NCBI GenBank assembly: GCA_016190245.1
Contig: JACPQY010000085.1
Coordinates: forward strand, 68,861-132,860
DNA: 64,000 nucleotides
Reading direction: 5' to 3'
From: Nitrospirota bacterium
Lineage (GTDB): Bacteria > JACPQY01
Shown here: positions 2,394-55,730 of the stretch, one piece after another
Position numbering within the stretch: position 1 is the stretch's first letter
Layout: each line of letters begins with the position of its first letter
Program-made: the position numbers and the translations under genes
The notes under the pieces: generated by a model
What the model was told of the DNA's origin: nothing
Seen by the model: the letters and a program-made list of their open reading frames with translations, nothing else
Database searches by the model: none

Positions 2394-2568
2394 TCGGAAC
2401 CTCCGCTCTCCTCCATCTGCGCGCCTCGCCTTCCGCCCCATGCAATGCGGCCGGTTCTGGTCCATCGTCAAGCTCTGACCTCAAAGTTCAGCTCCTGCAT
2501 TGTCCGAAGCTGACAGCTGATCGCTGACCGCTGAAGGCCTACAGGATTCAGTACCTGCTTCATTCTCC
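2394..2568. other. Intergenic spacer between convergent genes
   Basis: This 175-base spacer carries the dispersed phrase GTCAAGCTCTGACC (about 2469), also seen near 10541 and 59795. It also has short imperfect repeats of the type GCTGACAGCTGATCGCTGACC. No gene seen. Confidence 0.5.
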
Positions 2569-3897: not shown

Positions 3898-3977
3898 ATC
3901 TCACCCCTTTCCCCTCATTAGTGTGTCCATCATGTCATCATATATATCTATGCCATATGATATCAATGTCAATATCC

Positions 3978-7430: not shown

Positions 7431-7434
7431 CTGC

Positions 7435-8031
7435 TCACCTCGGCCTCTGCGGCGCAAACGCCCCGCCGAGGAATGCGGCCTTGCACTTGGGATCCTCGGG
7501 GCCATTTCTCATGATCTCTGCCGCAAGCTTGCAAGAAGGAATGTTCGCAGCGAGCTTGAACTCCTCTGTCACTCTCGCGTCGTCCGGACCATAGAAGCTA
7601 CCCGTCACTTCCATGTACGGACAGAGGCTTGCGGCAGGGCTTGCGTCGACATCTGACACGCACTGTTCGTACGCCTCGATTGCTCTTCGGGAGATTGCTT
7701 CGAGGGACGTCGCAAGATTGGGGCACTCCCCGGCAATTGTCTTGTTGCCTTCCAGAGCCTCGCTCACGGCAACATTCTCAAAGGCGCGCAGACATTCCTC
7801 GGGCGTCCCATGGATTCTTACTAGGGGGGCCTCGGGTGCACACACAAATGCAACCTCGCATACTTCCTTTTTCAGGAATTTCATCGCCGCCTCGTCGAAC
7901 CTTCTGACTTCGTCGCTTTTCGCGCCTCCGCTCTTCTCTTCTCCGCCGCATGCTGCAAGGGCGAGCGTGAGAAAGACGCCTCCCATTGCGAATCTCGCGC
8001 CGCCAAGCCTGAAATGAAGACGCCCGCGCAT
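7435..8031 (-). CDS. Cys-rich lipoprotein, 198 aa
   Basis: The N-terminus is FLTLALAACGGEEKSG, a good lipobox (LAAC) followed by a GGEE linker. The mature part has paired Cys (VCEVAFVCAP; PEECLRAF; GECPNL; QCVSDV; SLCPYM; SCKLAAEI; PKCKAAF), suggesting disulfides. The pattern resembles the neighbouring 8045-8701 product (CxVxFxC, then ECRA, then CxxxV), so the two look like diverged tandem paralogues. Function unknown. It is first or second in a minus-strand run ending with the two large secreted proteins, and its stop is coupled to the next start. Confidence 0.65.
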   Translation of the reverse strand: MRGRLHFRLGGARFAMGGVFLTLALAACGGEEKSGGAKSDEVRRFDEAAMKFLKKEVCEVAFVCAPEAPLVRIHGTPEECLRAFENVAVSEALEGNKTIAGECPNLATSLEAISRRAIEAYEQCVSDVDASPAASLCPYMEVTGSFYGPDDARVTEEFKLAANIPSCKLAAEIMRNGPEDPKCKAAFLGGAFAPQRPR

Positions 8032-8044
8032 CGTTCCTCCCCTT

Positions 8045-8701
8045 TCAACCCTTCACCAAGGGTCGTTTCGACCCGCGCTCCGGGGCAAACAACAAGTCGG
8101 TGTAGCCTTGCATCACATCGCCACAGGGATCCCCAGCGCTAAGCCGCTGGAACTCCTCTAATGAGACCCTGTTGTCTTGCCGAAAAAAATAGTCCTTGCA
8201 ACCCGAGCTTGAAGCCTGTCCCAGGATTCCGAAGTCATCACCATCGTAGTAGGGCGCTTCGGACACATCCACGAACTGACACAGGCTTTCATTGGGCAGC
8301 GATGCGACATCCTCCATACATGACACGTACGACGACGACAGGCCAGTCGCGCGAAGAAACTCTGCACACCTCGCACGGTCTGGAATCTCCAGAGATCCAC
8401 TGACTCGCTGGTCCATCAATGCCCGGCACTCCCCCACTGTCGCCGGCGAAACCCGGATCGAAGTAGCGCTGTCAAAGATAGCCGCTTTTCTGCCATACCC
8501 ACAGGCAAATAGGACGTCACACGTCTTGTGGTATCGGACCTGTAGTGCATGGAGGTGGTTCTCAATTGGGTCCCCCTCGTTCCCCCCTCCCTCATCCCCC
8601 CCCCCGCAGGTGGGAAGAATCGTGAAGGGGAATGTGTAAAGGGTGAGCAGCAGGGCCAGGATCGAGAACCGTGAACCGAGAATCGTGAATCGATGGGTCA
8701 T
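8045..8701 (-). CDS. Cys-rich secreted or lipoprotein, 218 aa
   Basis: A hydrophobic N-terminus (FSILALLLTLYTFPFTILPTC then GGGDEGGG) looks like a lipoprotein signal, although LPTC is a poor lipobox. The mature part has TCDVLFACGYG, GECRALM, RCAEFL, SCMEDV, LCQFV, GCKDY and DPCGDV, the same Cys layout as the next gene. Its first 50 bases are built from the short repeat that fills 8643-9000 (units such as TTCACGATTCTCGG), so part of the signal peptide is repeat-encoded. The true start could therefore be internal. Function unknown. Confidence 0.55.
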   Translation of the reverse strand: MTHRFTILGSRFSILALLLTLYTFPFTILPTCGGGDEGGGNEGDPIENHLHALQVRYHKTCDVLFACGYGRKAAIFDSATSIRVSPATVGECRALMDQRVSGSLEIPDRARCAEFLRATGLSSSYVSCMEDVASLPNESLCQFVDVSEAPYYDGDDFGILGQASSSGCKDYFFRQDNRVSLEEFQRLSAGDPCGDVMQGYTDLLFAPERGSKRPLVKG

Positions 8702-8840
8702 GTCAGGCTCCTTTCAGAACCGCAAATCGGGAATCGTGAATCGGAAATCGAAAACCGAGAAAGGAGAACGGCTCTTGTGGCGAACCCTGAAGCGTGAAGC
8801 GAGACCCCATGCGGCATCGGCGCCGAGGCCCGGGAGTAAC

Positions 8841-8885
8841 GATCATGCGTTCCGTCCCATCCGCCGCCACGACCCGCCGACGCGG
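8841..8885 (+). repeat. 45-bp direct repeat, copy 1
   Basis: Matches 9046-9090 with one mismatch at an offset of 205 bases; begins GATCATGCGTTCCGTCCC. Read on the minus strand both copies contain the peptide GRGGGWDGTHD, hinting at a duplicated gene fragment. Confidence 0.8.
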
Positions 8886-9045
8886 TCGAGCAAACGGTGA
8901 GCAGTGAACGGTGAACAGCGGGGCGAGAACCGGGAATCGGGAACGGGGGGCCAGAAGCCGAGAACCGGGGAACCGTCTGTAAAGTCTTTGGGGACGTTGC
9001 CAAGCAAAGCAACTCCCGCCGACTTCACTATGGGCCGCCCGTGAC

Positions 9046-9090
9046 GATCGTGCGTTCCGTCCCATCCGCCGCCACGACCCGCCGACGCGG
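9046..9090 (+). repeat. 45-bp direct repeat, copy 2
   Basis: Second copy of the 8841-8885 repeat; begins GATCGTGCGTTCCGTCCC. The intervening 160 bases differ, so this is not a simple tandem array. Confidence 0.8.
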
Positions 9091-9407
9091 CCGCCGTGCA
9101 CGAATCCGTGCGCAGATCAAGCCTCGGGAAGTTGTAGATCGCGTCGCCGTCAACGTCGGGAGGGCCGCCGTCAAAGCGGGCACGGCTCTGCGACTGCACC
9201 TTGGGGACAGGCAAGTCAGATTGCCCCATCAGGAATGCTCCTCTCGGGGATCGCGGAACCTTCGGGACGTTGCCAAGAAAGTCAAGCTGTGCCATCGGGG
9301 GTGCTCCTTTCGGAATCGGGAATCGCAAATAGGGGAACGGGGAGCCAGGGAGCCGGGGAACCGGGAAATGCAAATCGGGAATCGGAAACTGAGAACAGCC
9401 GGTCTGG

Positions 9408-9479
9408 ATTCCGGCTTCCACCGGAATGACGGACCTTGACCCCGCAGCGCGCCGGATTCCCCGCCAGCCGGCGGGGAAT
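9408..9479. repeat. Two adjacent REP-like hairpins
   Basis: First hairpin: ATTCCGG (9408-9414), loop of six, CCGGAAT (9421-9427). Second: ATTCCCCGCC (9456-9465), loop of four, GGCGGGGAAT (9470-9479). Both are followed by GAC, the usual layout of dispersed ATTCC...GGAATGAC elements. Confidence 0.65.
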
Positions 9480-9953
9480 GACGCACCCCCCTGCCGCGGC
9501 GCGGGCGCGTCTCCGAAAACCCCTCCTGTCTCTCCATAGGCATTCCCCCTCGGAATGCCCGCACCCTCGGTTCTTCGGCTCGCCCTCTCCGCCACGGCGG
9601 ACTCGCCTGATCCTCGGGTACTGGGCCTTCGTGGCCCGCACCGCTCGAAATCCCGCCTCACCTTCCCGGCTCGGCCGGTACTCACGGCACGGGGTCGTCC
9701 TGGCCCGCCACTCCACCTCTCTGGTGAGGTTCCCTGACTCATCCCCTACCATGGGCCACCTGATCGCGCAAGCGCAGCACGGCAGTCGGCAGCGGGCAGC
9801 CGGACCACCTGTCCGGGCGAGTGTATTGGAGTATGCCGTCCCCGGTAATACCGGTGGTATGGGGGATGCCGGGTAAATCCCTGCCGGAACGTCGGAATCG
9901 TCGCCGGCGGGTCCGCTCTCCAATCGCTCGATCCCCGGGGGCGTGAACGGTGC

Positions 9954-9959
9954 TACAAT
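9954..9959 (+). promoter_or_regulatory. -10 box (TACAAT) for a leaderless mRNA
   Basis: TACAAT ends exactly six bases before the ATG at 9966, with no room for a ribosome site. The same spacing occurs at five other genes in the window. Confidence 0.55.
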
Positions 9960-9965
9960 GCCCCC

Positions 9966-10343
9966 ATGAGCGTCATCCAGAAGTCGATCACGCTGGAAGG
10001 CTCCAAGCGCCGACGCCGCGAGGAGGCTCTCTTCAACAGCGGCGCCACCTACTCCTGCATCCGGGAGGACGTGGCGCGCTCCTTGGACCTGTTGATCCCC
10101 CTGCCTCGCCCCCTCCGCTTCGGAACCGCCGAGAATGGCCATACCGTCAAGGCCACACACGCGGTCCGCCTCGACTTCCGAATCGGGCGATACCGGTTCT
10201 CGGATGAATTCATGGTCATCCCATCGCTCTCCGAACCCGTCCTCATCGGCGCCGCCACACTCCAGAAGTGGCGGTTCAAGCTCGACTTCGAGAACGACGA
10301 GGTGATCATCGACCCAAGGGTCACGAAGCTCAGGCTGCTGTAG
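9966..10343 (+). CDS. Retropepsin-like protein with altered catalytic motif
   Basis: 125 aa. It has the fold signature of single-domain clan AA (retropepsin-like) proteins: a short strand region, then ALFNSGATYSCI where an active enzyme has D[ST]GA, and a second conserved region with SEPVLIGAATLQKW and DFENDEVIIDPR. The Asp of the D[ST]GA motif is Asn here, whereas the twin at 10587 keeps DSGA, so this copy is probably inactive or regulatory. The twins are nearly identical in the last 90 bases and diverge upstream. Transcription is predicted to start at the ATG. Substrate and partner unknown. Confidence 0.65.
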   Translation: MSVIQKSITLEGSKRRRREEALFNSGATYSCIREDVARSLDLLIPLPRPLRFGTAENGHTVKATHAVRLDFRIGRYRFSDEFMVIPSLSEPVLIGAATLQKWRFKLDFENDEVIIDPRVTKLRLL

Positions 10344-42923: not shown

Positions 42924-43080
42924 GATCGGCAGTCGAGAGTCGGCAGTAGGCAGTCGGGAGTCAGCCGTCCACAGTCCATCTCCGATCGTGCGTCGTCGAT
43001 AGTCCATCGTCCATGGTCGATCGTCCATAGTCCGTTGTCGTTACGCCCGGCCTGACCTTGTCCCTTCCAACGCCCGCGGG
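42924..43080. repeat. Degenerate short repeats between ccr and ecm
   Basis: Units such as GTCGGCAGT, GTCGATAGTCCATCGTCC and GTCCATAGTCCG recur imperfectly; the block ends at the -10 box of the next gene. Confidence 0.6.
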
Positions 43081-43081
43081 G

Positions 43082-43087
43082 TACAAT
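43082..43087 (+). promoter_or_regulatory. -10 box (TACAAT) for a leaderless mRNA
   Basis: TACAAT, then GACCTC, then the GTG of ecm at 43094. A TTGTCC lies 18 bases upstream as a possible -35 box. Confidence 0.55.
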
Positions 43088-43093
43088 GACCTC

Positions 43094-45244
43094 GTGAGTC
43101 ACAAAGACAAGCCGTGGATCATGCGGACGTATGCGGGGCACTCGTCCGCGGCCGCCTCGAACGAACTGTACCGCGCGAACCTCGCCAAAGGCCAGACGGG
43201 ACTCTCCATCGCCTTCGACCTGCCCACGCAGATCGGCTACGACTCGGATCACTCACTCGCCCACGGCGAAGTCGGCAAGGTGGGGGTCCCCATCTGCTCG
43301 ATCGAGGATCTCGACCGGCTCCTCGAGGGCATCCCCCTCGACCGGATGAACACTTCGATGACGATCAACGCCACCGCCGCGTGGCTTCTCTCTCTCTACA
43401 TCGCGCTTGCCGAAAACCGCGGGATCGCTCCGCAGACACTCCAAGGCACCACGCAAAACGACATCATCAAGGAATACCTCTCGCGCGGGACCTACATCTT
43501 CCCGCCCGACCCCTCGATGCGACTCATCACCGACGTGGTGCTGTACACCGTGGGGAACGTGCCGAAATGGAACCCGATCAATGTGTGCAGCTATCACCTC
43601 CAGGAGGCGGGCGCCACGCCGGTCCAGGAGATCGCCTTCGCCCTCTGCACGGCAATCGCGGTGCTGGACGGGACACGGGCGGCCCTTGCGCAAAGAAACC
43701 GCCAAGCATCCATTCACTACCCCCCATCCTCACCTTCCCCCGCAAGGGGGGAAGGGACACATGAGGAGGCGCCGCCCCCTTCTTTCCCCTCCCCCTGGAC
43801 GGGGGAGGGTATGGGTGGGGGTGAACTCCCGCCCGCTGGAAATCGTCAAGTGCCAAGCCTGACCCCGGATGGGGTGGATGCGATCGTCGGGAGGATGTCG
43901 TTCTTCCTGAACTCGGGGATTCGCTTCGTGGAGGAGATGTGCAAGGTGCGCGCCTTTACCGAGTTGTGGGATGAGCTTGCGCGGAGCCGCTACGGCGTCG
44001 AGGATCCGCAATACCGCCGCTTCCGGTACGGCGTGCAGGTGAACTCGCTCGGCCTCACGGAGAGACAGCCCGAGAACAACATCATGCGGATCGCCTTCGA
44101 GGCGCTGGGTGTCGTCCTATCGAAGAGCGCGCGCGCACGCTCGCTCCAGCTCCCCGCTTGGAACGAGGCCCTCGGACTGCCACGGCCGTGGGACCAGCAG
44201 CTCTCGCTCCGGCTCCAGCAGATCCTCGCTCACGAGACTGATGTTCTCGAATACGAAGACCTCTTCGACGGCTCGCCCGTCATCCGCGCAAAGGTGGACG
44301 AGCTCACGGCCGCCGCCAAGGAGGAGATGAATCGGATCCTGGAGATGGGCGGGATCGTCCGCGCCGTCGAGACGGGATACGTGAAGCAGCGGCTGGTCGA
44401 ATCGAACGCGGCGAGGCTGCGGGCCATCGAAGCCGGGGAACAGACCGTGGTCGGTGTGAACAAGCTGACCGAGACCGCCCCCTCGCCTCTCACGGCATCC
44501 GACGAGAATCCTCTCATCCTGAAAGTGGACCCCAGAGCCGGGGAGGAACAACTCGCCCGGCTGCGCGCATTTCGATCGCGGCGAAACGCGAGGGACGTGG
44601 AGGCGGCGCTCAAGGGTCTGGGGGATACCGCGCGACAGGGGGCGAACCTCATGCCGGCCTCCATCCGCGCCGCCCACGCGGGCGTCACAACAGGTGAGTG
44701 GGCCGACGTCCTGCGCGAGGTCTTCGGTGAATACCGGGCCCCAACAGGCGTAGCCCCGTCCATCGGAACAGTCCCTTCGAATGGATCGGGGACCGCACGC
44801 AATGCCCCCGATGAAGCCCAACGCGCGATGGGGCGCAGAGTGCGCATCCTCATCGGCAAGCCGGGCCTGGACGGGCACTCGAACGGCGCGGAACAGATCG
44901 CCGTGCGCGCCCGGGACGCAGGGATGGAGGTGATCTACGCCGGCATCCGCCTCACACCCGAACAGATCGCCGTCTCCGCGCTCCAGGAAGACGTGGATCT
45001 CATCGGCCTCAGCATCCTCTCGGGTTCGCACGTTGAGCTCGTGACCGAGGTCATGTCACACCTCAACAAACAAGGCCTGGTCGACGTGCCCGTCGTCGTC
45101 GGCGGCATCATCCCCCCCCCCGATCACGACGCCCTCCGGAAGCTTGGCGTCAAACGGATCTACACGCCGAAGGATTTCGAGCTGAACGCCATCCTCTCCG
45201 ACCTCCTCACCCTCGCCGCCGAGGCCCGGCGTCATTCATCCTGA
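43094..45244 (+). CDS. ecm: Ethylmalonyl-CoA mutase (B12) with in-frame repeat insertion
   Basis: 716 aa from GTG 43094. PWIMRTYAGHSSAAASNELYRANLAKGQTGLSIAFDLPTQIGYDSDH is the ethylmalonyl-type mutase opening (methylmalonyl-CoA mutases have YAGFSTA). The TIM-barrel (residues about 1-530) includes MNTSMTINATAAWLLSLYIAL, DIIKEYLSRGTYIFPP and NIMRIAFEAL. The C-terminal B12 domain has RRVRILIGKPGLDGHSNGAEQIA (base-off His) and LIGLSILSGSH. About 45 residues near 205-255 (SSPSPARGEGTHEEAPPP) come from a GC-rich repeat. It rearranges ethylmalonyl-CoA to methylsuccinyl-CoA. A -10 box six bases before the start predicts a leaderless transcript separate from ccr. Confidence 0.88.
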   Translation: MSHKDKPWIMRTYAGHSSAAASNELYRANLAKGQTGLSIAFDLPTQIGYDSDHSLAHGEVGKVGVPICSIEDLDRLLEGIPLDRMNTSMTINATAAWLLSLYIALAENRGIAPQTLQGTTQNDIIKEYLSRGTYIFPPDPSMRLITDVVLYTVGNVPKWNPINVCSYHLQEAGATPVQEIAFALCTAIAVLDGTRAALAQRNRQASIHYPPSSPSPARGEGTHEEAPPPSFPSPWTGEGMGGGELPPAGNRQVPSLTPDGVDAIVGRMSFFLNSGIRFVEEMCKVRAFTELWDELARSRYGVEDPQYRRFRYGVQVNSLGLTERQPENNIMRIAFEALGVVLSKSARARSLQLPAWNEALGLPRPWDQQLSLRLQQILAHETDVLEYEDLFDGSPVIRAKVDELTAAAKEEMNRILEMGGIVRAVETGYVKQRLVESNAARLRAIEAGEQTVVGVNKLTETAPSPLTASDENPLILKVDPRAGEEQLARLRAFRSRRNARDVEAALKGLGDTARQGANLMPASIRAAHAGVTTGEWADVLREVFGEYRAPTGVAPSIGTVPSNGSGTARNAPDEAQRAMGRRVRILIGKPGLDGHSNGAEQIAVRARDAGMEVIYAGIRLTPEQIAVSALQEDVDLIGLSILSGSHVELVTEVMSHLNKQGLVDVPVVVGGIIPPPDHDALRKLGVKRIYTPKDFELNAILSDLLTLAAEARRHSS
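43719..43826. repeat. Dispersed GC-rich repeat inserted in frame in ecm
   Basis: Same ordered blocks as the intergenic copy at 31212-31332 (ACCCCCCATCCTC, CCCCCGCAAGGGGGGAAGGGA, GGGGGAGGGT, GGGTGGGGGTGAAC). The reading frame is preserved. Confidence 0.75.
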
Positions 45245-45289: not shown

Positions 45290-45547
45290 TCAGTAGATGT
45301 CGCCACGCGGGCCGATCGTCTCTACCAAGACGCAATTCCTCTCCCCGTCGATCGAGTAGACGACTCGCATGGAACCAACCCCGTAGCGATAGCTCCCCGT
45401 CAACTCACCTCGCAGCTTTCGGACATGGGCACCCGCAAAGGGATCCACCTGAGGTGAAGCGAAGCAACGATCCAACTTCCGGGGTGTCTTGGACGACACC
45501 TTTCGGCAGAACTTGAGGGCTTCGTCGGAGAGGCGGACCTCAAACAC
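45290..45547 (-). CDS. RelE/ParE-family toxin
   Basis: 85 aa. FEVRLSDEALKFCRKVSSKTPRKLDRCF, then DPFAGAHVRKLRGELTGSYRYGVGSMRVVYSIDGERNCVLVETIGPRGDIY gives the RelE fold: KLxGxxxGxYRxRxGxxRVxYxID...VxixxIxxRxxxY. An Arg/Tyr catalytic set in the second half is plausible, so mRNA cleavage on the ribosome is expected. The gene overlaps its upstream partner's stop by eight bases, the usual antitoxin-toxin layout. Confidence 0.85.
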   Translation of the reverse strand: MFEVRLSDEALKFCRKVSSKTPRKLDRCFASPQVDPFAGAHVRKLRGELTGSYRYGVGSMRVVYSIDGERNCVLVETIGPRGDIY

Positions 45548-45779
45548 GCCGGCGGACGCTTCGCCAGGGCGTGGTCTTTCCTCGACGAACCTGATCGCGA
45601 CCGCGGCGCCAAGACTTCATGAGCGCGGCGTCGCCGGTCAGCTCCGATGTGGCTTCCCATTCCTCCTTCTCACGGAGGAACCGTAGAAACACCACGGCCT
45701 CCTGGAGTCGATCCGACGGCAACGCCTTGAGAAGGTTGAACGCCTGGTTTCTCATCCCCACTGGATTATCCTGGTTCAT
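45540..45779 (-). CDS. Putative antitoxin partner of the RelE-like toxin
   Basis: About 79 aa from ATG 45779 (100 aa if an upstream start is used). QAFNLLKALPSDRLQEAVVFLRFLREKEEWEATSEL resembles short helical antitoxins of the DUF2281/YoeB-partner kind, with a conserved LPxxxLxEvxdFixFL motif. It lacks an obvious DNA-binding domain. The overlap with the toxin start supports co-translation. The assignment rests on position and that motif. Confidence 0.6.
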   Translation of the reverse strand: MNQDNPVGMRNQAFNLLKALPSDRLQEAVVFLRFLREKEEWEATSELTGDAALMKSWRRGRDQVRRGKTTPWRSVRRRV

Positions 45780-45870
45780 CAACCCCTGCGTTGGCAATTC
45801 CAAAGGCCTTGACAGATTTCGACTCCGCGCCTCCAACCGCATCCGCGCGGTTCAGACATCCGGCACGGCA

Positions 45871-45909
45871 CGGGATCGGAAGTAGGCCAGGAGTTCCCGC
45901 TTGCCGAGG
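45871..45909 (-). pseudogene. Duplicated fragment of the cas9 3' end
   Basis: 39 bases matching 46810-46848 at 35 positions. Read on the minus strand it encodes LGKRELLAYFRSR, the exact Cas9 C-terminal sequence, followed by a different short tail and a stop. It is a remnant, not a gene. Confidence 0.75.
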
Positions 45910-45936
45910 CTTGGGAAACCTGCTCGGCAACAACCC

Positions 45937-46353
45937 TCAGTCTTTCAGCGCACAGGCAGGAAGGTGTTCTTGGATTTTGTCACGGACACGACGGGCGACT
46001 TCAACGGCCCCCTGCGCCTCGTGAAACGGAATCGGTTCCCACCCGCCCGGGTAGCGTGCCGAGGTCGCATACTGCGTCAGTCGCCGTCGCTCTTCGGCGC
46101 TCAGCGGGACCACCACATCGCCGGGGACGAGCCTCGTGATCTGATCCAAATCGTGCGTCTTTGGGAAGTCGATGGCTCTGTGGACAAGCAAGGCCTTCAG
46201 ATATTTCTCAACGGATTGTTGGGCATGGAAGCACACGGCGCCTGTTGGACAATCCACATGCTTTTCCAACAGAAAAGCAGCCGCCCGAAGGTCATCCTCC
46301 GCAACCTGTACCCATTCGCGAGCCAGCCCCTCGGGTGTATCAGCAGCGCTCAT
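45937..46353 (-). CDS. HEPN domain protein, partner of MNT nucleotidyltransferase
   Basis: About 138 aa from ATG 46353. AREWVQVAEDDLRAAAFLLEKH, CPTGAVCFHAQQSVEKYLKALLVHRAIDFPKTHDLDQI is the core of the HEPN family (PF05168-type): WxxxAExDlxxAxxL....vcfHaQQavEKyLKAlLv..g..fpkTHdL..L. The RNase RX4-6H motif of toxic HEPN proteins is not obvious, so RNase activity is doubtful. It follows the nucleotidyltransferase gene with a 14-base overlap and forms the common MNT/HEPN pair. Such pairs are often toxin-antitoxin modules in which AMP transfer silences the HEPN protein (family knowledge). Confidence 0.8.
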   Translation of the reverse strand: MSAADTPEGLAREWVQVAEDDLRAAAFLLEKHVDCPTGAVCFHAQQSVEKYLKALLVHRAIDFPKTHDLDQITRLVPGDVVVPLSAEERRRLTQYATSARYPGGWEPIPFHEAQGAVEVARRVRDKIQEHLPACALKD

Positions 46354-46687
46354 AGAGGACGATGCCCTCACGGAGGGCAGGCCGCAGGATAGTGCCGACG
46401 AGATTTCCAAATCGGTGCACGTCGTCGGGTGTAAACACGATGATATCCTTGGAGACTGGGATGTCGCATAGATCCACCCCGATGCGAACGCTCGCCTCCC
46501 TCCTGGACGCTTCCACCGGCATGATGATGAGGAGGTCCACGTCGCTGTCCGGCCTCGGGTTCCCCCGGGCGTGCGAACCGAAAAGGACGATTTTCTCCGG
46601 GTTGTATTTCTCGACGATAATGGACACCATTTGGCCGATTTCGCCCCGGAGCCTCGGCGTCGGGCCGGCGGAACGCATGGTGCTCAC
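46340..46687 (-). CDS. MNT-type minimal nucleotidyltransferase
   Basis: 115 aa, start GTG 46687 or ATG 46678. KIVLFGSHARGNPRPDSDVDLLIIM is the nucleotidyltransferase signature GSxARGxxRxxSDxDLxV with both catalytic Asp. SKDIIVFTPDDVHRFGNLVGTIL matches the C-terminal half. It is expected to AMPylate or nucleotidylate its HEPN partner. A perfect dyad (46689-46703) lies just before the start, compatible with autoregulation. The pair lies between cas9 and a second copy of the cas9 tail. Confidence 0.85.
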   Translation of the reverse strand: MSTMRSAGPTPRLRGEIGQMVSIIVEKYNPEKIVLFGSHARGNPRPDSDVDLLIIMPVEASRREASVRIGVDLCDIPVSKDIIVFTPDDVHRFGNLVGTILRPALREGIVLYERC

Positions 46688-46688
46688 A

Positions 46689-46703
46689 CGAGTAGCCTAC
46701 TCG
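46689..46703. promoter_or_regulatory. Dyad operator candidate upstream of the MNT/HEPN pair
   Basis: CGAGTA-GCC-TACTCG, six-base arms, two bases from the GTG start. Confidence 0.35.
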
Positions 46704-46790
46704 GCCCGGGAAAATCGCACAAGGACGTTAGCCGCCCGGCGTCTTCACGTACGGCCTTTAAGGGGCGTGGAGGTCCGGTGCTGGACGATC

Positions 46791-49631
46791 TCAGGTCGCC
46801 GGATCCGGCCGGGAACGAAAATAGGCCAGGAGTTCCCGTTTGCCGAGGGTGCGCTCCGGCGAAGCCGCTCTCTGCTCCCGGGGAATGCCCTGCCGATCCG
46901 CCAAGGCGTCCGGGAGCGCATTCTCAGGGATCACGATCACGTTGTCGCGGGACAGCTCCTTGACGCGATAGAAAACTCCATCCAACCGAATCACTTCCCC
47001 TCGCTCAATTCGGCCGATCTTCTTTGCTCTCTTCGGCAAAGGCGGATCGATCATGTCTTGAACGAGTTCCCTGATCGCACGAGGACGCACGCGGGAAAGG
47101 CACAGACTCTCCCGCGATCCCCTCACCACGCTCCACAAGATAGCTGCTTCCGATTGAATGGGCTTGACTTGGACCTTTCTGACCCCGCTTGTTCCATCGT
47201 GATGGGGTACTCGCACCACGAGTCCGCCCTTCTGACTCTTTGCGGTGTAGCGCCGTTGTCCCGTCGTTGTCGGCTGCGGCAGGGGTTTGTGGACCCAAAG
47301 CTTGGGCGTGTCCACGTTGGCGGGCTGCTGAAACAGGCTGAGATCCATCAGTTGCCTTCGCCATGTCGCCTTCAGCTTTCCGAGTTCCCGCACAATGGGA
47401 ACGGCTCGCCGTCTCAGGAATCCGGCCCAGTCCGGCGCAAGTGCCAACAGCGCGACTCCCGGCCGTGGTCGCAACTCATGTTCAAACGAACCATTCTCCA
47501 GAACCACCAAGGCTCCTTTTTCATCCTTCTTGACGCAGGGGCGAACGGCGGTCTCGCACAGTATGCGAGGTCGCCAGGTGTGCGGCGGCGTGGCGGCGAG
47601 CAGGGCGGCGTCCTGCGCATGATTGAACAAATCCGTACGATCCTTCCTTGGGAAGTTCTCCTGTCGAGCCTCGCGGTCGTGGAAGAGCCAAGACATGCGG
47701 AGGTCGCGGGTCCATCGACCGGAAACCACCTGGAGGTGCGGTTTCCCGAGGATATACGCCGGGGACGGCGGTTCGACTCCATACGTCTTGAAAAGTTCGG
47801 CGATTTCCGCAGCAAACGCTCCGCTTCGGGCGGCGACCCGCGCCAAGGGAGTCGGGTCGTCCGGGTAGTTCGCGCCCGCCGGGAGCAGAAGAAGCATGCG
47901 CTTGAAGTCGGGCATGTTGATTCGCCTGACTCTTTCTTCAAAACGTAGCCATTCCTCCTCCTTCTTCCACTCGCTCGGCAGTCTGTTGCCTTTCCCCGTG
48001 TCGGGATGATTGCATGTGTGGCAGGCAGCCACGCGATTGAGTTGGAGGTCGGGACCACCGCGTGCCCTCGGCACGATGTGGTCCATCTCCGTTGCCTCCA
48101 CCGGGATCTCCTTCCCGCAATACATGCAAGTCCCGCCTGATTCGCCGTGCAGTCTCTCCCGGATGGACAGGGTCTTCCGCTCAGTTTGCTTCCCCTTCCC
48201 CACCCGCTCCGTCTGAGGGTCGGGAATCTCCAAGGTAAGAAGGGCCACCGGACCATGTCGCCACGCTACCTGACCCTTCTTCCCTCGAATGAACAAGATC
48301 TCCTCCAGTCTCCTCAACACGCGCTGATCATGCTGCTCCCGACGCGGATTCGGGGCGTGGCGGCCCCGCATCTGTTGCCAGGCCAGCCCTGCATCCATCA
48401 TGCTTCCGCCACCAGCGGCCAGATCGAGATGTTGCATGCACAACTTGGCACGGCCTCGGCGAGGAGTACGATTCAGAAGATCGTTCAACTGCGGAAGCAT
48501 CGGGTGGTCGAGGTTCCATTGCCCCTTGGAGTTCTTCATCCATCTCCTCGGCGATTCGATGGAATCCAGGTACTTGCTGATGTTGTCCTCCGACGGGGCG
48601 CGTTCGGTCACGGGGACCTTCGGACCTTTCGGGAAATCAGATCCGCTCGCCCGTTTTTCCCACCAATCAAGCAATGGCTTCCGCTCCTCATTCGACAGGG
48701 AGCGAAACTCCCTCGCACCTGTCCATTTTGGGACACGCAGATTACCGACGGCCGCGCGGAATGCCTTGAATCGGACCTCGGGTTTCTTGAGTCTTGGCGT
48801 CTTCTTCCCGCACCACGAGCAACCCGACCTCAATCGATTGTCGAATCGGGCGGGGCGTAAAACTCTGTTCAGAAGACCGACCAATTCCTTGCACCACCGC
48901 TCGATAACCATTGGCTCCATCCGGTGTTTTTCGCCGAACCGTTGCACGATCACTCGAACAGCGTTTTCCTTGATCTGCCGGGGAACCGCTTTACGCGGTT
49001 CGGGTGGCCTGTTCAGCGAGTTCTCATAGGCAGCCGTCAGCTTCGGTCTGGCGCGACGCTCGACCTCGGCCCTGAGTTGCTCCGCCATCGTGCCGGCCTC
49101 TCTCAGGATGCAGCAGGATTCGAGAAAGTCGTGGAGCCGCGCATCGGGCAGATCCTCGAAATCCTTGTCGTCATACCTGTAGCCGCGTTTCTTGAAGATC
49201 AGCGTTATCGCTCGAACAAAACCACGGGCATCGAGACCATCCTTCTGCGCCACTTCAATCCAACCCGGACCGCCGCAGGGGTCGGCCCCTTTCGTTTCGT
49301 AAGTGCCCGGTTTCGGCCAGAATCTCTTGTCGGCCAGTACGTCATAGGGGTCCGGAAGCCGCTCTCCGTTCGGAAGCTTCTGTCTCAGAACCCATGACCG
49401 AAGGCGCGCGAGTCGCATTTTCTTGGCGTGGCGGGTCCTCCTCCCCCTTCGCAGGATCCGGCGCTGTTCAAGTGTGGCATCGTGAAAATCCACATACGTT
49501 TCGGCATGAAGGATTTCGCGATTCCTGACAACGGCGATGCCGCCCGCGGCCTCACCGAGATCAACACCCACCCGCACAGAATTCAGAAAACTGTCAACAC
49601 GCGATGCCAAGTCGGGAGGAACGCCATTCAT
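46791..49631 (-). CDS. cas9: Compact Cas9 (type II-C2-like), 946 aa
   Basis: All nuclease elements are present. RuvC-I is RVGVDLGEAAGGIAVV (Asp24). An Arg-rich bridge helix (55-85, QRRILRRGRRTRHAKKMRLA) follows. RuvC-II is VALLTLEIPDP (Glu468). The HNH is at 500-545 with EMDHIVPRARGG (His518) and N532/N541, framed by a CMYC/CHTC zinc ribbon. RuvC-III is NHAQDAALLA (His671, Asp674). A further CSWC sits at 271-274. ARLRSWVLRQKL, FVRAITLIFKKRGYRY and AKSQKGGLVVRV match, from memory, the 950-aa Cas9 of the archaeon ARMAN-1, the type member of II-C2. It cuts both DNA strands under crRNA:tracrRNA guidance. The start ATG 49631 sits just past a tracrRNA terminator. The cas genes read divergently. Confidence 0.93.
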   Translation of the reverse strand: MNGVPPDLASRVDSFLNSVRVGVDLGEAAGGIAVVRNREILHAETYVDFHDATLEQRRILRRGRRTRHAKKMRLARLRSWVLRQKLPNGERLPDPYDVLADKRFWPKPGTYETKGADPCGGPGWIEVAQKDGLDARGFVRAITLIFKKRGYRYDDKDFEDLPDARLHDFLESCCILREAGTMAEQLRAEVERRARPKLTAAYENSLNRPPEPRKAVPRQIKENAVRVIVQRFGEKHRMEPMVIERWCKELVGLLNRVLRPARFDNRLRSGCSWCGKKTPRLKKPEVRFKAFRAAVGNLRVPKWTGAREFRSLSNEERKPLLDWWEKRASGSDFPKGPKVPVTERAPSEDNISKYLDSIESPRRWMKNSKGQWNLDHPMLPQLNDLLNRTPRRGRAKLCMQHLDLAAGGGSMMDAGLAWQQMRGRHAPNPRREQHDQRVLRRLEEILFIRGKKGQVAWRHGPVALLTLEIPDPQTERVGKGKQTERKTLSIRERLHGESGGTCMYCGKEIPVEATEMDHIVPRARGGPDLQLNRVAACHTCNHPDTGKGNRLPSEWKKEEEWLRFEERVRRINMPDFKRMLLLLPAGANYPDDPTPLARVAARSGAFAAEIAELFKTYGVEPPSPAYILGKPHLQVVSGRWTRDLRMSWLFHDREARQENFPRKDRTDLFNHAQDAALLAATPPHTWRPRILCETAVRPCVKKDEKGALVVLENGSFEHELRPRPGVALLALAPDWAGFLRRRAVPIVRELGKLKATWRRQLMDLSLFQQPANVDTPKLWVHKPLPQPTTTGQRRYTAKSQKGGLVVRVPHHDGTSGVRKVQVKPIQSEAAILWSVVRGSRESLCLSRVRPRAIRELVQDMIDPPLPKRAKKIGRIERGEVIRLDGVFYRVKELSRDNVIVIPENALPDALADRQGIPREQRAASPERTLGKRELLAYFRSRPDPAT

Positions 49632-49644
49632 GGTTCATCATGAG

Positions 49645-49680
49645 GAGAGAGAAAGAGGCGGCTGGGCTCGGCAGCCGCCC
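49645..49680 (-). terminator. Rho-independent-type terminator of the candidate tracrRNA
   Basis: Minus strand GGCGGCTG, loop of seven, CAGCCGCC (49679-49657) followed by TCTTTCTCTCTCC. It ends only 13 bases before the cas9 ATG. Confidence 0.6.
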
Positions 49681-49806
49681 GGGAGTCCTTGCCCTTCCGC
49701 AGAGCCGGCCTTGCGGTGGCGGGGCCAGGCATTGGGGAGAGCGGGTAGCTGGACTCTGTCATCCGGTCCCGTGTCCTGGCGCCTGGGCTTCTTTCATTCT
49801 GGAAGC
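49645..49806 (-). ncRNA. Candidate tracrRNA (about 160 nt)
   Basis: The minus strand here contains GTGCTTCC-AGAATGAAAG (49808-49791). It pairs with the first half of the CRISPR repeat as read on the minus strand (CTTTCATTCT-C-GGAAGCAT): ten pairs, one bulged C, eight pairs (one a G-U). The 3' side of the anti-repeat pairs with the 5' end of the crRNA repeat, the correct geometry for a type II guide. Downstream there are possible stems (CCCAGGC with GCCTGGC; CCGCA/TGCGG) and a terminator. Promoter: TTGACA (49841-49836), 17 bases, TGAAGT (49818-49813). Boundaries and expression are inferred. Confidence 0.72.
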
Positions 49807-49812
49807 ACCTCT

Positions 49813-49863
49813 ACTTCAGCACCGGAATACTGGCTTGTCAAGTACTACATACCTGTGTATGCT
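49813..49863. promoter_or_regulatory. Divergent promoters for tracrRNA/cas9 and cas1-cas2-cas4
   Basis: Rightward: TTGTCA (49835-49840), 17 bases, TATGCT (49858-49863). Leftward: TTGACA (49841-49836), 17 bases, TGAAGT (49818-49813). The two -35 boxes are the halves of one palindrome, CTTGTCAAG, so the promoters should exclude each other. Confidence 0.55.
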
Positions 49864-49952
49864 ATACGAACGGGGGAGGGAGGCGACATGGAGGCGGGCT
49901 CATCGCGTGCGACTGGGCAGCCCCTTTTGGGATAGGGAATAGGAGGGAACGT

Positions 49953-51059
49953 ATGGAACAGGTGATCGTGGATCAATTCGGGGCCTATCTGTCCAAGAAG
50001 AGCGAAAGGCTCGTGGTGAAGGCGCCGAGAGCGCCGGAACTGCGGCCCGCGGATGGGATTCAGCTTCTGCTCCCGTTCCCCGACCCGCCGGATGCCGGCG
50101 AGGCCAGACCGGCGCCCCTTCGGAAGGGAACGATTCTGGCCGAGATTCCATTTTTCCGAATCTGCGAGATCCTCGTGACCTCCAGGGGGGTGTCGCTCTC
50201 GACCGACCTGATCGAGGAGTGTTGCCGGAGGGGGATTCGGATCACACTACTGGCGGGGAGCCGACCCTTCGCCATGCTCTCCTCGCCGATGCTGACCGCC
50301 ACGGTGCAAACGCGCCGCGAACAGATGCAGGCGTATCTGGACGAACGCGGGTTCGAACTGGCGCGCGCGTTCTGCGCGGGCAAGGTCCGCAACCAGATCC
50401 GCCTTCTCCGTTACTACGGCAAGTATCTCAAGGAGGCTCACCCCGATCGGTACGAGCAGGTAGCGTCCGGCACGGGGGCGATTGAGGCCATCGAAGGGAA
50501 ACTCCGCGAAGTGCAGGCGGCGGACATTGATTCGGCGCGCGAGGTCCTCATGGGTCTGGAGGGCACGGCGGCGCGTGTCTACTGGTCGGGCATTCGATGC
50601 CTCTTGGAAGGCCACATCGAGTTCTCCGGGCGCGAGCATCGGGGGGCCGCCGACCCCGTGAACGCTTCGCTCAATTACGGCTACGGGATTCTCTACTCCG
50701 TCGTGTGGGGCGCCATCCTGAACGCCGGGCTCGAGCCGTTCGCCGGCTTCCTGCACGTGGACCGGCCGGGGAAGCCGTCGCTCGTCCTCGACATGACCGA
50801 GGAGTTCCGTGCCCCGGTGGTGGATCGGGCCGTGGTCGGCCTGTTCACGAGAGACCAGAAGGTGGGGATGGCAGAGGGCCTCCTTGATGCGGAAAGCCGG
50901 AAGCTCATTGCCGATCGCGTGAAGGACCGGCTCTCGGCCCCGGAACCATATCGGGGGGCGAAGTACCAAGTGCGCTCGATCATCCAGGCGCAGGCGCGCC
51001 GCGTGGCCGTGGCCGTCCGGCGAGAGGGGCGATACGAGCCCTTCGGATTCACCTGGTAG
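49953..51059 (+). CDS. cas1: Cas1 integrase
   Basis: 368 aa, ribosome site GGAGGGAACG. N-terminal beta domain (about 1-120: VIVDQFGAYLSKKSERLVVK; SRGVSLSTDLIEECCRRGIRITLL) and helical domain. Metal ligands are Glu203 (LMGLEGTAARVYW), His268 (EPFAGFLHVDRPGKPSLVLD) and Asp280/Glu283 (MTEEFR). NASLNYGYGILYSVVW is the conserved central motif. A Pro-rich linker at 40-56 is unusual. It forms the Cas1-Cas2 complex that inserts spacers. First gene of cas1-cas2-cas4; cas2 starts six bases after its stop. It is closer in style to type I/V Cas1 than to the II-A version (impression). Confidence 0.93.
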   Translation: MEQVIVDQFGAYLSKKSERLVVKAPRAPELRPADGIQLLLPFPDPPDAGEARPAPLRKGTILAEIPFFRICEILVTSRGVSLSTDLIEECCRRGIRITLLAGSRPFAMLSSPMLTATVQTRREQMQAYLDERGFELARAFCAGKVRNQIRLLRYYGKYLKEAHPDRYEQVASGTGAIEAIEGKLREVQAADIDSAREVLMGLEGTAARVYWSGIRCLLEGHIEFSGREHRGAADPVNASLNYGYGILYSVVWGAILNAGLEPFAGFLHVDRPGKPSLVLDMTEEFRAPVVDRAVVGLFTRDQKVGMAEGLLDAESRKLIADRVKDRLSAPEPYRGAKYQVRSIIQAQARRVAVAVRREGRYEPFGFTW

Positions 51060-51064
51060 GGGCG

Positions 51065-51361
51065 ATGGACGAGATCCTCACGCTGGCCGTGTACGACATC
51101 GAGCAGGACCGCATCCGCGCGAAGATCGCCGATATCTGCAAGGACTACGGCCTCGAGCGGATCCAGTTCAGCGCGTTCATGGGCCGTCTCTCCCGAAACC
51201 GCCGGGAGGAGCTGTTTCTCAAACTCACCGGGAGACTTGGGGACACGCCCGGTCAAATCCTCGTCGTGCCCATCTGCGAGAAAGACGCCCGGGCCGTCCA
51301 GGAGAAGACGGTCCCACCCGCGCGCGAGGCACACGGCGCCGAGGAGACCTCGGCACCATGA
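51065..51361 (+). CDS. cas2: Cas2
   Basis: 98 aa. LAVYDIEQDRIRAKIADICKDYGLERIQFSAFMGRLSRNRREELFLKL is the ferredoxin-fold Cas2 opening (Y-D-I, then RxKIAxxCxxYGLxRIQxSvF). GQILVVPICEKDARAVQ is the fourth strand. The tail beyond residue 80 is short and polar. It bridges Cas1 dimers during spacer capture. Its stop overlaps the cas4 ATG by four bases. Confidence 0.92.
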   Translation: MDEILTLAVYDIEQDRIRAKIADICKDYGLERIQFSAFMGRLSRNRREELFLKLTGRLGDTPGQILVVPICEKDARAVQEKTVPPAREAHGAEETSAP

Positions 51362-51930
51362 TCCTCCGCGTGGCGGACCTCAGGCAGTACGCGTACTGTC
51401 CACGCGTCGTCTACTTCACGTACGTCCAACCCCTCGATCGGCAGCCCACGTACAAAATGAAGGAGGGGAACTCCGCCGAGTCCAAGACCATACCCACGGA
51501 AAGACGGCGAACGCTCGCCCGCTACGAATTGCCCCAAGGCGTTCGAACATTCGGCGTATCGCTCTCCTCCCCAAGAATCGGACTGAGCGGAAAACTCGAT
51601 CTCCTGATCGAAGCCGAGGGAAGGTACTATCCCGTGGAGTTCAAGACCACCCGTCCCAGTGTTTTTCCCAACATGCGATGCCAGCTCGCGGGCTACGCCC
51701 TGTTGGTCGAGGAACGATCCGGTACACCGGTGGAGAGCGGATTCATCCAGTTTCTTCCTTCCGGCCGAACCTTCCCGGTGGATCTCCCGAGCACGCTCAA
51801 GGCCGAGACGCGCGGACTCGTTGAGACCATGCGCCGGATGATCGAACGGGAGGAGATGCCGGAGCCCACGCCACGGCAGCAGCGGTGCGCGGACTGCGAA
51901 TATCGAAACTTCTGCGGGGATGTTTCGTGA
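51358..51930 (+). CDS. cas4: Cas4 nuclease
   Basis: 190 aa. The N-terminal Cys is in RQYAYCPRVVYF (Cys14); the C-terminal cluster is CADCEYRNFC (Cys177, 180, 186), together a 4Fe-4S site. The RecB/PD-(D/E)XK active site is GKLDLL (Asp81) and VEFKTT (Glu94, Lys96), with QLAGYALLVEE behind. Cas4 trims prespacers and selects PAM-adjacent ends. Cas4 is absent from II-A and II-C1 loci and found in II-B and II-C2, so it supports the II-C2 call with a short Cas9. The stop lies about 110 bases before the first repeat. Confidence 0.92.
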   Translation: MILRVADLRQYAYCPRVVYFTYVQPLDRQPTYKMKEGNSAESKTIPTERRRTLARYELPQGVRTFGVSLSSPRIGLSGKLDLLIEAEGRYYPVEFKTTRPSVFPNMRCQLAGYALLVEERSGTPVESGFIQFLPSGRTFPVDLPSTLKAETRGLVETMRRMIEREEMPEPTPRQQRCADCEYRNFCGDVS

Positions 51931-51951
51931 CGCCGGGCGTTTCGAAAATCC

Positions 51952-51980
51952 CCCGCCTTTTCCGGCGGGCTAGGCGTTTT
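51952..51980 (+). terminator. Terminator-like hairpin after cas4
   Basis: CCCGCC (51952-51957), loop TTTTCC, GGCGGG (51964-51969), then CTAGGCGTTTT. Confidence 0.45.
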
Positions 51981-52015
51981 CGAGGTCGTCTGGCTGTAGA
52001 AGCCGAAAATCGGCT

Positions 52016-52044
52016 GAAAGGGCGGGCACATGGCCCGCCCTTTC
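52016..52044. promoter_or_regulatory. Leader hairpin fused to the first repeat
   Basis: GAAAGGGCGGGC (52016-52027), loop ACATG, GCCCGCCCTTTC (52033-52044). The right arm is shared with the first five bases of repeat 1 (CTTTC). Confidence 0.5.
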
Positions 52045-52545
52045 AGAGGCTACCAAGATGCTTCCGAGAATGAAAGACTCGGTCACGCGGGCCTCTAGGG
52101 CGGCGCGGTCGGCTTTCAGAGGCTACCAAGATGCTTCCGAGAATGAAAGTCCTAAATGGAGGGCGTCCCGTTTCCGGGCGGTTTCTTTCAGAGGCTACCA
52201 AGATGCTTCCGAGAATGAAAGCCTCCTCAATGTCCTGCGTAAACGCGTCGCTCAGTCCTTTCAGAGGCTACCAAGATGCTTCCGAGAATGAAAGGTTGCT
52301 ATCCGGGGCTCGGCGGCGATTGCGGATCGGGACTTTCAGAGGCTACCAAGATGCTTCCGAGAATGAAAGATGCCCGTGCTGTCGGCGGGTACTAGAGAGC
52401 CACGACTTTCAGAGGCTACCAAGATGCTTCCGAGAATGAAAGGGCTGCTGCCGTGCCTCCGGGAGCGGCTGTTACTGTACAGTGGACGGCCGTCCACTGT
52501 ACAGTATGAGCTTGTGGGCGCCCGAACCGCTTCCCGGAATGAAAC
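52040..52545 (-). CRISPR. CRISPR array, six 37-bp repeats plus one degenerate unit
   Basis: Identical repeats at 52040-52076, 52113-52149, 52185-52221, 52258-52294, 52333-52369 and 52406-52442. Each runs CTTTCAGAGGCTACC...GAGAATGAAAG with terminal inverted CTTTCA/TGAAAG. Spacers are 36, 35, 36, 38 and 36 bases. A degenerate repeat at 52509-52545 keeps GCTTCC.GGAATGAAA, and the segment before it (52443-52508, 66 bases) contains a 34-bp palindrome. Degeneration on the right puts the acquisition end on the left, next to cas4. Pairing with the tracrRNA implies that crRNAs come from the minus strand. Spacer targets cannot be judged here. Confidence 0.95.
52473..52506. repeat. Perfect 34-bp palindrome within the last spacer interval
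   Basis: TACTGTACAGTGGACGG and its exact reverse complement, no loop. The interval is about 30 bases longer than the other spacers, as if the palindrome had been added to one. Confidence 0.9.
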
Positions 52546-54089: not shown

Positions 54090-54506
54090 CTACTTCTTCT
54101 TGCCCGGGTCCGGCTTCGCCTCGCCTACGCCCTTGCAACCCTGCTTGTTCAGAGAGCGGATGAACGCGACGATGTTCATCACCTTGTCGTCCGGCTTGAT
54201 CTGAGCGCCCCAGGCCGGCATGATGGGCGACTTCCCGACGGCCGCGCCCCCTTCCTTGATCGTCTTCATGAGTTGCTCGTCCGTCATGGCGCACATCTTG
54301 GCGGGATCCGAGTGATCCGCGGGCTTCACGGGCAGCGTCTTTGCCGCGGGACCGTCCCCCTTTCCTTCGGGGCCATGACAGCCCACGCAAAGTTTCTGGT
54401 AGGCGGCCTTGCCATCGGCCGCGTCGGCCTTCGAAACATCCGCGCGCGCGACCACCGGCACCACGACCAGCGCGCTCAACAAGAAGAAAAAACTCCCACG
54501 TTTCAT
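54090..54506 (-). CDS. c-type cytochrome with its own signal peptide, nested in the same frame
   Basis: 138 aa from ATG 54506, with AAAGGAGGTCG seven bases upstream, a near-perfect ribosome site. MKRGSFFFLLSALVVVPVVARADV is a Sec signal peptide. AAYQKLCVGCHGPEGKGDG holds the CxxCH heme site. IMPAWGAQIKPDDKVMNIVAFIRSLN has the distal Met and the last helix of a mono-heme class I cytochrome. It is expected to be a small periplasmic electron carrier. The in-frame extension into the upstream membrane enzyme has no stop, so both a free cytochrome and a fusion could be made. Confidence 0.8.
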   Translation of the reverse strand: MKRGSFFFLLSALVVVPVVARADVSKADAADGKAAYQKLCVGCHGPEGKGDGPAAKTLPVKPADHSDPAKMCAMTDEQLMKTIKEGGAAVGKSPIMPAWGAQIKPDDKVMNIVAFIRSLNKQGCKGVGEAKPDPGKKK

Positions 54507-55730
54507 CGAACGACCTCCTTTGGCGCCCGGGATTCCGGGATTCTGAAGGAGCGACGCGTCCGCGGCTTCGTCGGTGTTCACACCCGGCGGCGCCTGCTCC
54601 CGCTTCTTCCTAAACACGAGGATCCAGGATAAAACGGCGAAGACCATAGCATACTTGCCGATCATGAGCAACGCGTCCGACAGAGGGGAGTCAATCAGGA
54701 CGTAGCAGTCCACGCCAAAGAGAGCGGTCAAGAGCCAGATCGCGACCACCCCACGCTTGGACGACCCCAGGAGTTCCGCCACGCGATGATGGAAGTGGTC
54801 CCGACCGGTGTACTCGATCCAGTCGCGGAAGTTGTGCACCTTGCCTTCATAGATCCGTCCGAACGTGATCAGGAACATGTCGTAGATGGGCACGAAAAGG
54901 ATAATGAGAGGGATGCTGAGCGACACCCATTGATCGCTCGCCCACGCACCCATCACCGCCAGCGACGCGATGGTGAAACCCAGCAGCGTGCTGCCCCCAT
55001 CGCCGAGAAAGATCTCCGCCCGCCCCCGTACTCGGAAATTGAAAAGCAGGAACCCGAGACATCCGCCCGCCAGCGCGAAAGCGATCTGTCCGTAGGGCAA
55101 CGCATCGATCTTCAAGCCGATGGCGCCGAAGGAGAAAGCCGCGACGAGCGCTACCCCCGATGCGAGGCCGTCATAGCCGTCCAGGAAGTTGAACGCGTTT
55201 GTGATCCCGATAATCCACAGGGCCGTGAGGAGGACCTCCACGGCACGCCCCCACCACGTCCCGGGCATGAAGGTGAGGACGACATCGCCCTGCATGACCA
55301 ACGCCGTCGCGACGATCTGCACGATCAGGCGGAACAGGGCGGAGAGCCCCCTGAAGTCGTCCACCATCCCCGTGATCGTAAGGAGCGTGAGCGCGAGCAT
55401 GAGCCATCGGATCTTCGGGTAGTAGATGCCCACGAGGTAGACGCTCGCCAGCACGGAGATGCAGATCGCCGCCCCCCCCCACAAGGCCGTCTCCACGGTG
55501 TGGACCTTGCGCGGATCCGGCTCGTCCACCACCCGCAGGCGCTCGGCGATCACTTTCACCACCGGCACGAGGAGCACCGTCGAGGCAAAGGCGAAGGAAA
55601 AAACGATCAGGCCGCGCTGCCAGCCGGACTCGTCCGCCATCTCGGTCATCCAGAACGGGAGGAACATCCCGAGGATGACGATGAGGGCGGGTTGGAGAAG
55701 GAGGTACCAGCGGCTGACCAGGCTGCTCAT
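54090..55730 (-). CDS. MraY/WecA-like glycosyl-1-phosphate transferase reading in frame into a cytochrome c
   Basis: Open frame of 546 codons. Residues 1-375 form a polytopic membrane enzyme of the polyprenyl-phosphate N-acetylhexosamine-1-phosphate transferase family: AERLRVVDEPDPRKVHTVETALWGG, MVDDFRGL, ITNAFNFLDGYDGLASG, RAEIFLGDGGSTLLGF and GRDHFHHRVAELLG hold the DDxxD-like, NxxNxxDGxDGLA and HxH motifs. It starts O-antigen or enterobacterial-type polysaccharide synthesis. No stop separates it from the cytochrome region, whose own start and ribosome site lie at 54506. The joint sequence (REQAPPGVNTDEAADASLLQ) is linker-like. Fusion protein, internal translation or a sequencing error are all possible. 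Confidence 0.8.
   Translation of the reverse strand: MSSLVSRWYLLLQPALIVILGMFLPFWMTEMADESGWQRGLIVFSFAFASTVLLVPVVKVIAERLRVVDEPDPRKVHTVETALWGGAAICISVLASVYLVGIYYPKIRWLMLALTLLTITGMVDDFRGLSALFRLIVQIVATALVMQGDVVLTFMPGTWWGRAVEVLLTALWIIGITNAFNFLDGYDGLASGVALVAAFSFGAIGLKIDALPYGQIAFALAGGCLGFLLFNFRVRGRAEIFLGDGGSTLLGFTIASLAVMGAWASDQWVSLSIPLIILFVPIYDMFLITFGRIYEGKVHNFRDWIEYTGRDHFHHRVAELLGSSKRGVVAIWLLTALFGVDCYVLIDSPLSDALLMIGKYAMVFAVLSWILVFRKKREQAPPGVNTDEAADASLLQNPGIPGAKGGRSMKRGSFFFLLSALVVVPVVARADVSKADAADGKAAYQKLCVGCHGPEGKGDGPAAKTLPVKPADHSDPAKMCAMTDEQLMKTIKEGGAAVGKSPIMPAWGAQIKPDDKVMNIVAFIRSLNKQGCKGVGEAKPDPGKKK

Follow-up and report, generated by a model that had tools for sequence, protein, structure and literature searches.

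A window of 64,000 nucleotides (nt) from a Nitrospirota bacterium (contig JACPQY010000085.1, positions 68,861 to 132,860) very probably contains a complete adaptive immune locus of type II-D of the CRISPR (clustered regularly interspaced short palindromic repeats)-Cas systems, which is a further well-formed bacterial member of this subtype and no new system type. The interval assigned to it in a preliminary description, 45290-52545, takes in probable passenger genes besides the CRISPR locus. Gene cas9 (46791-49631, minus strand) codes for a type II-D Cas9 of 946 amino acids (aa) and diverges from an operon on the plus strand (49953-51930) formed by cas1 (49953-51059, 368 aa), cas2 (51065-51361, 98 aa) and cas4 (51358-51930, 190 aa), with the array situated beyond cas4. 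The HNH and RRXRR-type regions of Cas9, together with Cas1 (PF01867, TIGR00287), Cas2 (PF09827, TIGR01573) and Cas4 (TIGR00372, 120 bits; best PADLOC match, Cas4_II), were identified with Pfam, NCBIfam and PADLOC, and the adaptation module that belongs to the definition of II-D (cas1, cas2 and cas4) is therefore present. The list of open reading frames (ORFs) shows no extra ORF in the operon ahead of the array as a candidate for csn2, the operon gene that marks II-A, and the cas genes are arranged as described previously.

The 2025 classification merges the former II-C2 with a small Cas9d variant into II-D, with hosts among archaea and some bacteria, and uses the monophyly of Cas1 as a second criterion defining the subtype (PMC12669027). 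The window Cas9 matched model NF049971 (CRISPR_Cas9d) over its full length with 702 bits (cut-off 375) and the general Cas9 model TIGR01865 with only 75 bits (cut-off 100). Few Cas9d-like proteins were found in a domain-wide sample of 386 genomes, and more members were collected by a genome contig search and from the phyla of a Micrarchaeota match (L042) and of Nitrospirae isolate J017 (L038), the last of which yielded locus L078 from genome G927. The L042 protein itself was discarded as an ARMAN-type candidate, being an ordinary II-C-like Cas9 with 712 bits to TIGR01865. Two scans of viral contigs found no relatives of the window Cas9, and in tblastn against plasmids and phages the matches obtained, to IscB and phage proteins, did not go beyond the HNH level.

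In a careful tree of 22 rows, the window Cas9 fell in a II-D group of eight rows (support 100/98) with L078, L038, L039 (Lindowbacteria), L064 (Micrarchaeota phylum), ARMAN-1, L040 and L079, in agreement with a quick full-length tree of 57 rows; IscB is well separated from it in the tree. The Cas9 of L079 (736 aa) corresponds over its whole length to the solved structure 9k32 (1649 bits). The ARMAN-1 row was a provisional sequence, but the fetched L064 protein, which shares 48% identity with it, occupies an equivalent position in the tree. The kinship to ARMAN-1 proposed in the preliminary description is thus borne out, and placement within ordinary II-C1 or II-B Cas9s, the result that it had named as contrary to its claim, was not obtained. 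On the contig of Nitrospirae J017, about 650 nt separate an IscB-like gene (L038/L066, 4287-5627, minus strand) from the II-D cas9.

The phylogeny of Cas1 leads to the same assignment. The proteins from six loci (window, L034, L035, L064, L078 and L079), in all of which cas1-cas2-cas4 adjoin cas9, formed a single branch (99/98) in a careful tree of 30 rows; this branch, in which the window Cas1 is the first to diverge, is sister to the Cas1 of I-B-type loci, which share the cas1-cas2-cas4 order, and stands well apart from the Cas1s of the remaining type II loci. With its place in both the Cas9 clade and the Cas1 branch, the window locus fits the definition of II-D. There is virtually no chance that it is instead an ordinary II-C1 or II-B locus: the size of its Cas9 is close to that of small II-C Cas9s, and cas4 occurs in II-B also, but the Cas9 is separated with support 100/100 from the II-C rows (Neisseriaceae and Sulfurospirillum), a 1526-aa Burkholderiales Cas9 and SpCas9, it stays below the cut-off of TIGR01865, its Cas1 differs from the usual type II kind, and neither protein lies in the II-C1 or II-B clades.

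The preliminary description had assigned the locus to II-C2, as an archaeal-type Cas9 in a bacterium. The kinship and the bacterial host hold, but the name is outdated by the merger of 2025 and the framing was overstated, because bacterial II-D loci are known and the nearest relatives are bacterial. The homology to archaeal proteins is clear (30% identity over most of its length to the provisional ARMAN-1 sequence, E 3e-104, and 32% in alignment A2 to the Micrarchaeota-phylum protein), and could be taken to indicate a separate archaeal-type II-C2 system recently transferred from an archaeon into this bacterium. Such a transfer is nevertheless very unlikely. In alignment A2 the nearest relatives are bacterial, with 45% and 41% identity; the window Cas9 groups with those of the bacterial loci L078, L038 and L039 (95/91), beside and not inside the archaeal pair; and the ARMAN-type Cas9s, within which it is not nested, branch within the bacterial set, with the bacterial L040 and L079 outside them in the 22-row tree. 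The window Cas1 is also nearer to that of the bacterial 736-aa Cas9d locus (L079, 46.6% identity) than to the archaeal Cas1 (34.5%), and II-C2 itself no longer stands apart from II-D (PMC12669027). It is conceivable, and we propose it tentatively as somewhat less probable than its opposite, that the ARMAN-type Cas9 of archaea had its origin in a bacterial II-D radiation to which the window locus belongs; Cas9d and an I-B-type adaptation module would have come together first in bacteria, and DPANN archaea would then have taken up the system, losing its HNH zinc ribbon.

The catalytic residues of Cas9 are intact. The residues listed in the preliminary description, D24, E468, H671 and D674 of RuvC and H518 of HNH, all fall in catalytic columns of a 59-row alignment of Cas9 and IscB, where E468, H518, H671 and D674 are invariant and the D24 column contains D in 53 rows, gaps in five and another residue in one; the RuvC and HNH catalytic residues of the II-D definition are thus present. 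The HNH domain also carries four zinc cysteines, C502, C505, C537 and C540 (CMYC...CHTC), kept in all bacterial II-D rows, in both IscBs and in some II-C rows. The archaeal pair lacks three of the four, and within the II-D group this loss is seen only in the archaeal branch. The ribbon was correctly recognized, but it is no oddity among the bacterial II-D proteins sampled: it is the common state, and the archaeal branch has lost it. A further set of zinc cysteines in REC (C271, C274 and C398) is kept in every II-D row sampled, in line with the zinc ribbons reported for Cas9d and Cas9c2 (PMC9755519).

The array (52040-52442, probably minus strand) consists of six identical 37-nt repeats and five spacers of 35-38 nt. 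It is followed by an interval of 86 nt and a degenerate terminal repeat (52529-52545) that ends near 52545. The interval contains a perfect palindrome resembling repetitive extragenic palindromic (REP) sequences (52465-52520, CTGTACAGTGGACGGCCGTCCACTGTACAG), with similar copies at more than 10 other places in the genome, which suggests that a dispersed element entered the end of the array. A comparison of the complete array with phages, plasmids and its own genome revealed no convincing protospacer, and three spacer seeds used as exact patterns gave no target in viral contigs; phages were matched solely by the palindromic element (21 nt, E 2) and by no spacer.

A candidate trans-activating CRISPR RNA (tracrRNA) of about 163 nt (49648-49810, minus strand) is predicted upstream of cas9 and co-directional with it, from the anti-repeat score, the fold and a terminator. 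Neither this RNA nor the palindrome in the array had been noted in the preliminary description. On the plus strand, the 20-nt anti-repeat (49791-49810) reads CTTTCATTCTGGAAGCACCT; apart from a single gap and a single mismatch it equals the reverse complement of the repeat, and its score of 32 lies above the highest value, 28, among 2800 background tests. In the minus-strand reading, the anti-repeat and the 5′ end of the minus-strand repeat form a helix of 20 bp (duplex energy, -37.2 kcal/mol), in which the mismatch is a G-U pair and a single bulged base stands at the gap. After the anti-repeat there are about 140 nt and then, just ahead of the cas9 start, a terminator-like hairpin (49656-49680, minus strand) with a 9-bp stem and a T-rich tail, CTTTCTCTCT, that ends the predicted tracrRNA. 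A tracrRNA on the plus strand was rejected, since the anti-repeat would then bind the repeat at its spacer-distal end, and the spacer-proximal end would stay free; with a minus-strand tracrRNA, pairing begins at the spacer-proximal end and the terminator lies downstream. The repeat end that pairs with the anti-repeat points to the minus strand for the CRISPR RNA (crRNA), with CTTTCATTCTCGGAAGCATCTTGGTAGCCTCTGAAAG as the repeat in that orientation. L034, L035, L064 and L078 likewise have anti-repeat-like stretches immediately ahead of cas9 and on its strand. Their placement in L034, L035, L078 and the window suggests that the array is transcribed towards cas4, that is, on the minus strand in the window; the gene order of L064 differs. 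The tracrRNA that forms part of the II-D definition thus appears to be encoded in the locus, and a single guide RNA (sgRNA) built from its parts would be CTTTCATTCTCGGAAGCATCT-GAAA-tracrRNA.

Several observations weigh against the assignment to a functional II-D locus. The array is short, and with no protospacer for the spacers searched nothing points directly to recent immunity. The Cas9 of L041 (7507-11728, Verrucomicrobiaceae UBA2429) matches NF049971 with 1112 bits, above every II-D protein tested, but its locus carries a Cas1 of the ordinary type II kind; a match to this model alone does not define II-D, and we rejected it as sole proof because the NCBI Cas9d model is evidently wider than the subtype defined by Cas1. 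The best matches of an AlphaFold2 model of the window Cas9 were the II-D structures 9lgi and 9k32 (VIA, Z 16.4), with 9k32 also on top in Foldseek; however, the model, built from a seven-row alignment, is weak (pLDDT 64.8, pTM 0.40) and the lead over other full-length Cas9s (VIA, Z 13-14.4) is about 1.5-2 Z units, and these modeled matches agree with the trees yet add little alone. The short array, its last interval disrupted by the palindrome, the spacers for which targets were not found and the passenger toxin-antitoxin genes at the 3′ end of cas9 might also suggest a degraded relic. We consider this unlikely, although less so than the other alternatives, given that all four cas ORFs are uninterrupted and of full length, with intact catalytic residues, the six repeats are identical and the predicted tracrRNA is complementary to them over 20 nt.

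By analogy with characterized systems, the II-D locus most likely confers adaptive immunity through DNA cleavage. Cas1-Cas2 would insert spacers of about 36 nt, with Cas4 trimming prespacers and selecting their orientation. The array would be transcribed on the minus strand, and a tracrRNA of about 160 nt, originating just upstream of cas9, would pair with each repeat. The source genome contains a gene for RNase III, so this host enzyme could cut the crRNA:tracrRNA duplex, unlike in archaea. Cas9d loaded with crRNA:tracrRNA would then cut DNA flanked by a protospacer adjacent motif (PAM), with HNH cleaving the target strand and RuvC the opposite one. Published Cas9d and Cas9c2 are active RNA-guided nucleases of double-stranded DNA with PAMs NGG, NRC or NAR (PMC9755519).

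The source genome (3.29 Mb, 86 contigs, 85% complete) was compared within its phylum with one other genome, G001, from the same family. Homologs of the flanking genes for methylmalonyl-CoA mutase and an asparaginase-type peptidase, together with tRNA-Pro, occur in G001 in the same order, indicating that both flanks are native. A chimeric contig is rejected by this synteny, and the bacterial surroundings reported earlier are confirmed. The gap between the mutase and tRNA-Pro is 0.7 kb in G001 versus 7.8 kb in the window; the CRISPR locus thus occupies an island adjacent to tRNA-Pro, gained in the window genome or lost in G001. The G+C content is 59-61% over cas9, compared with ca. 64% in the surroundings.

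Two gene pairs near cas9 are probably passengers. A toxin-antitoxin-like pair of MNT (46340-46687) and HEPN (45937-46410) genes, recognized with Pfam and NCBIfam, adjoins cas9 on the minus strand (45937-46687), and the other pair (within 45290-46687) consists of a ParE/RelE-like toxin and a 100-aa partner of no assigned family. Beyond the HEPN-MNT pair, as seen from cas9, there is a second copy, 82% identical, of the last ca. 50 nt of cas9 (45860-45909, minus strand), which still reads ...LGKRELLAYFRSRAVPDV*; this and its partner copy (46799-46848) flank the pair. Either HEPN-MNT entered at the 3′ end of cas9 and restored the gene, or related loci recombined there. BLASTP found no HEPN or MNT homologs near the related II-D loci that were fetched.

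Among the neighboring genes, the methylmalonyl-CoA mutase gene (43058-45244) contains an in-frame insert (approximately residues 209-272), rich in PSPARGEG-like words, that is absent from the G001 homolog. Sequences matching the insert occur at many other sites in G001, which gives it the look of a dispersed repeat within a coding gene. At 54090-55730, a WecA/MraY-like transferase, whose G001 homolog has 405 aa, continues in frame into a cytochrome c domain with its own signal-peptide-like start, as either a real fusion or the result of a lost stop codon. The same genome contains a second CRISPR system, of type I-E (L095 = G000:C11:32000-42575, ORFs 2398-10089), whose Cas5e (L095:6474-7592) bears a C-terminal HNH domain (PF01844 at 283-321) and is accompanied by Cas8e, Cas11, Cas7e, Cas6e and Cas1e; no cas3 was recognized among the ORFs scanned at this locus. 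With this gene content, the system resembles the HNH-Cascade variant I-E2 (PMC12669027).

The window locus leaves the picture of CRISPR diversity unchanged; its contribution is one more complete II-D locus of bacteria, with effector, adaptation genes, array and predicted tracrRNA, from a sparsely sampled phylum. Such loci help to settle the relation between archaeal and bacterial Cas9d and the joining of an I-B-like adaptation module to Cas9. The 946-aa protein is also a candidate compact nuclease, although smaller ones are known.

The closest system found is the uncharacterized L078, whose Cas9 is sister to that of the window (100/99) with 40% identity in full-length BLAST; it has the same gene set (cas1-cas2-cas4 and array) and an anti-repeat upstream of cas9, but its cas9 and cas1-cas2-cas4 are on one strand, whereas those of the window diverge. 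The larger, ARMAN-type Cas9d (formerly II-C2 or Cas9c2) share with the window locus a Cas9 of 900-1050 aa, cas1-cas2-cas4, a tracrRNA, the REC zinc cysteines and common Cas9 and Cas1 clades; the window locus differs in its bacterial host, in retaining the HNH zinc ribbon and in a Cas9 identity of only 30-32%. The small Cas9d (the 736-aa L079 protein, which is 9k32 NbaCas9, MG34-1, 8zq9 and 9lgi) include the closest Cas1 and have the same cas1-cas2-cas4 genes, Cas9 clade and a long guide RNA (the MG34-1 sgRNA has 158 nt; PMC11706934), but the window Cas9 is ca. 200 aa longer and 23% identical (alignment A2). Finally, IscB shares the RuvC-HNH-RuvC core, the HNH zinc ribbon and an arginine-rich bridge, but is far shorter and comes without a CRISPR array or adaptation genes.

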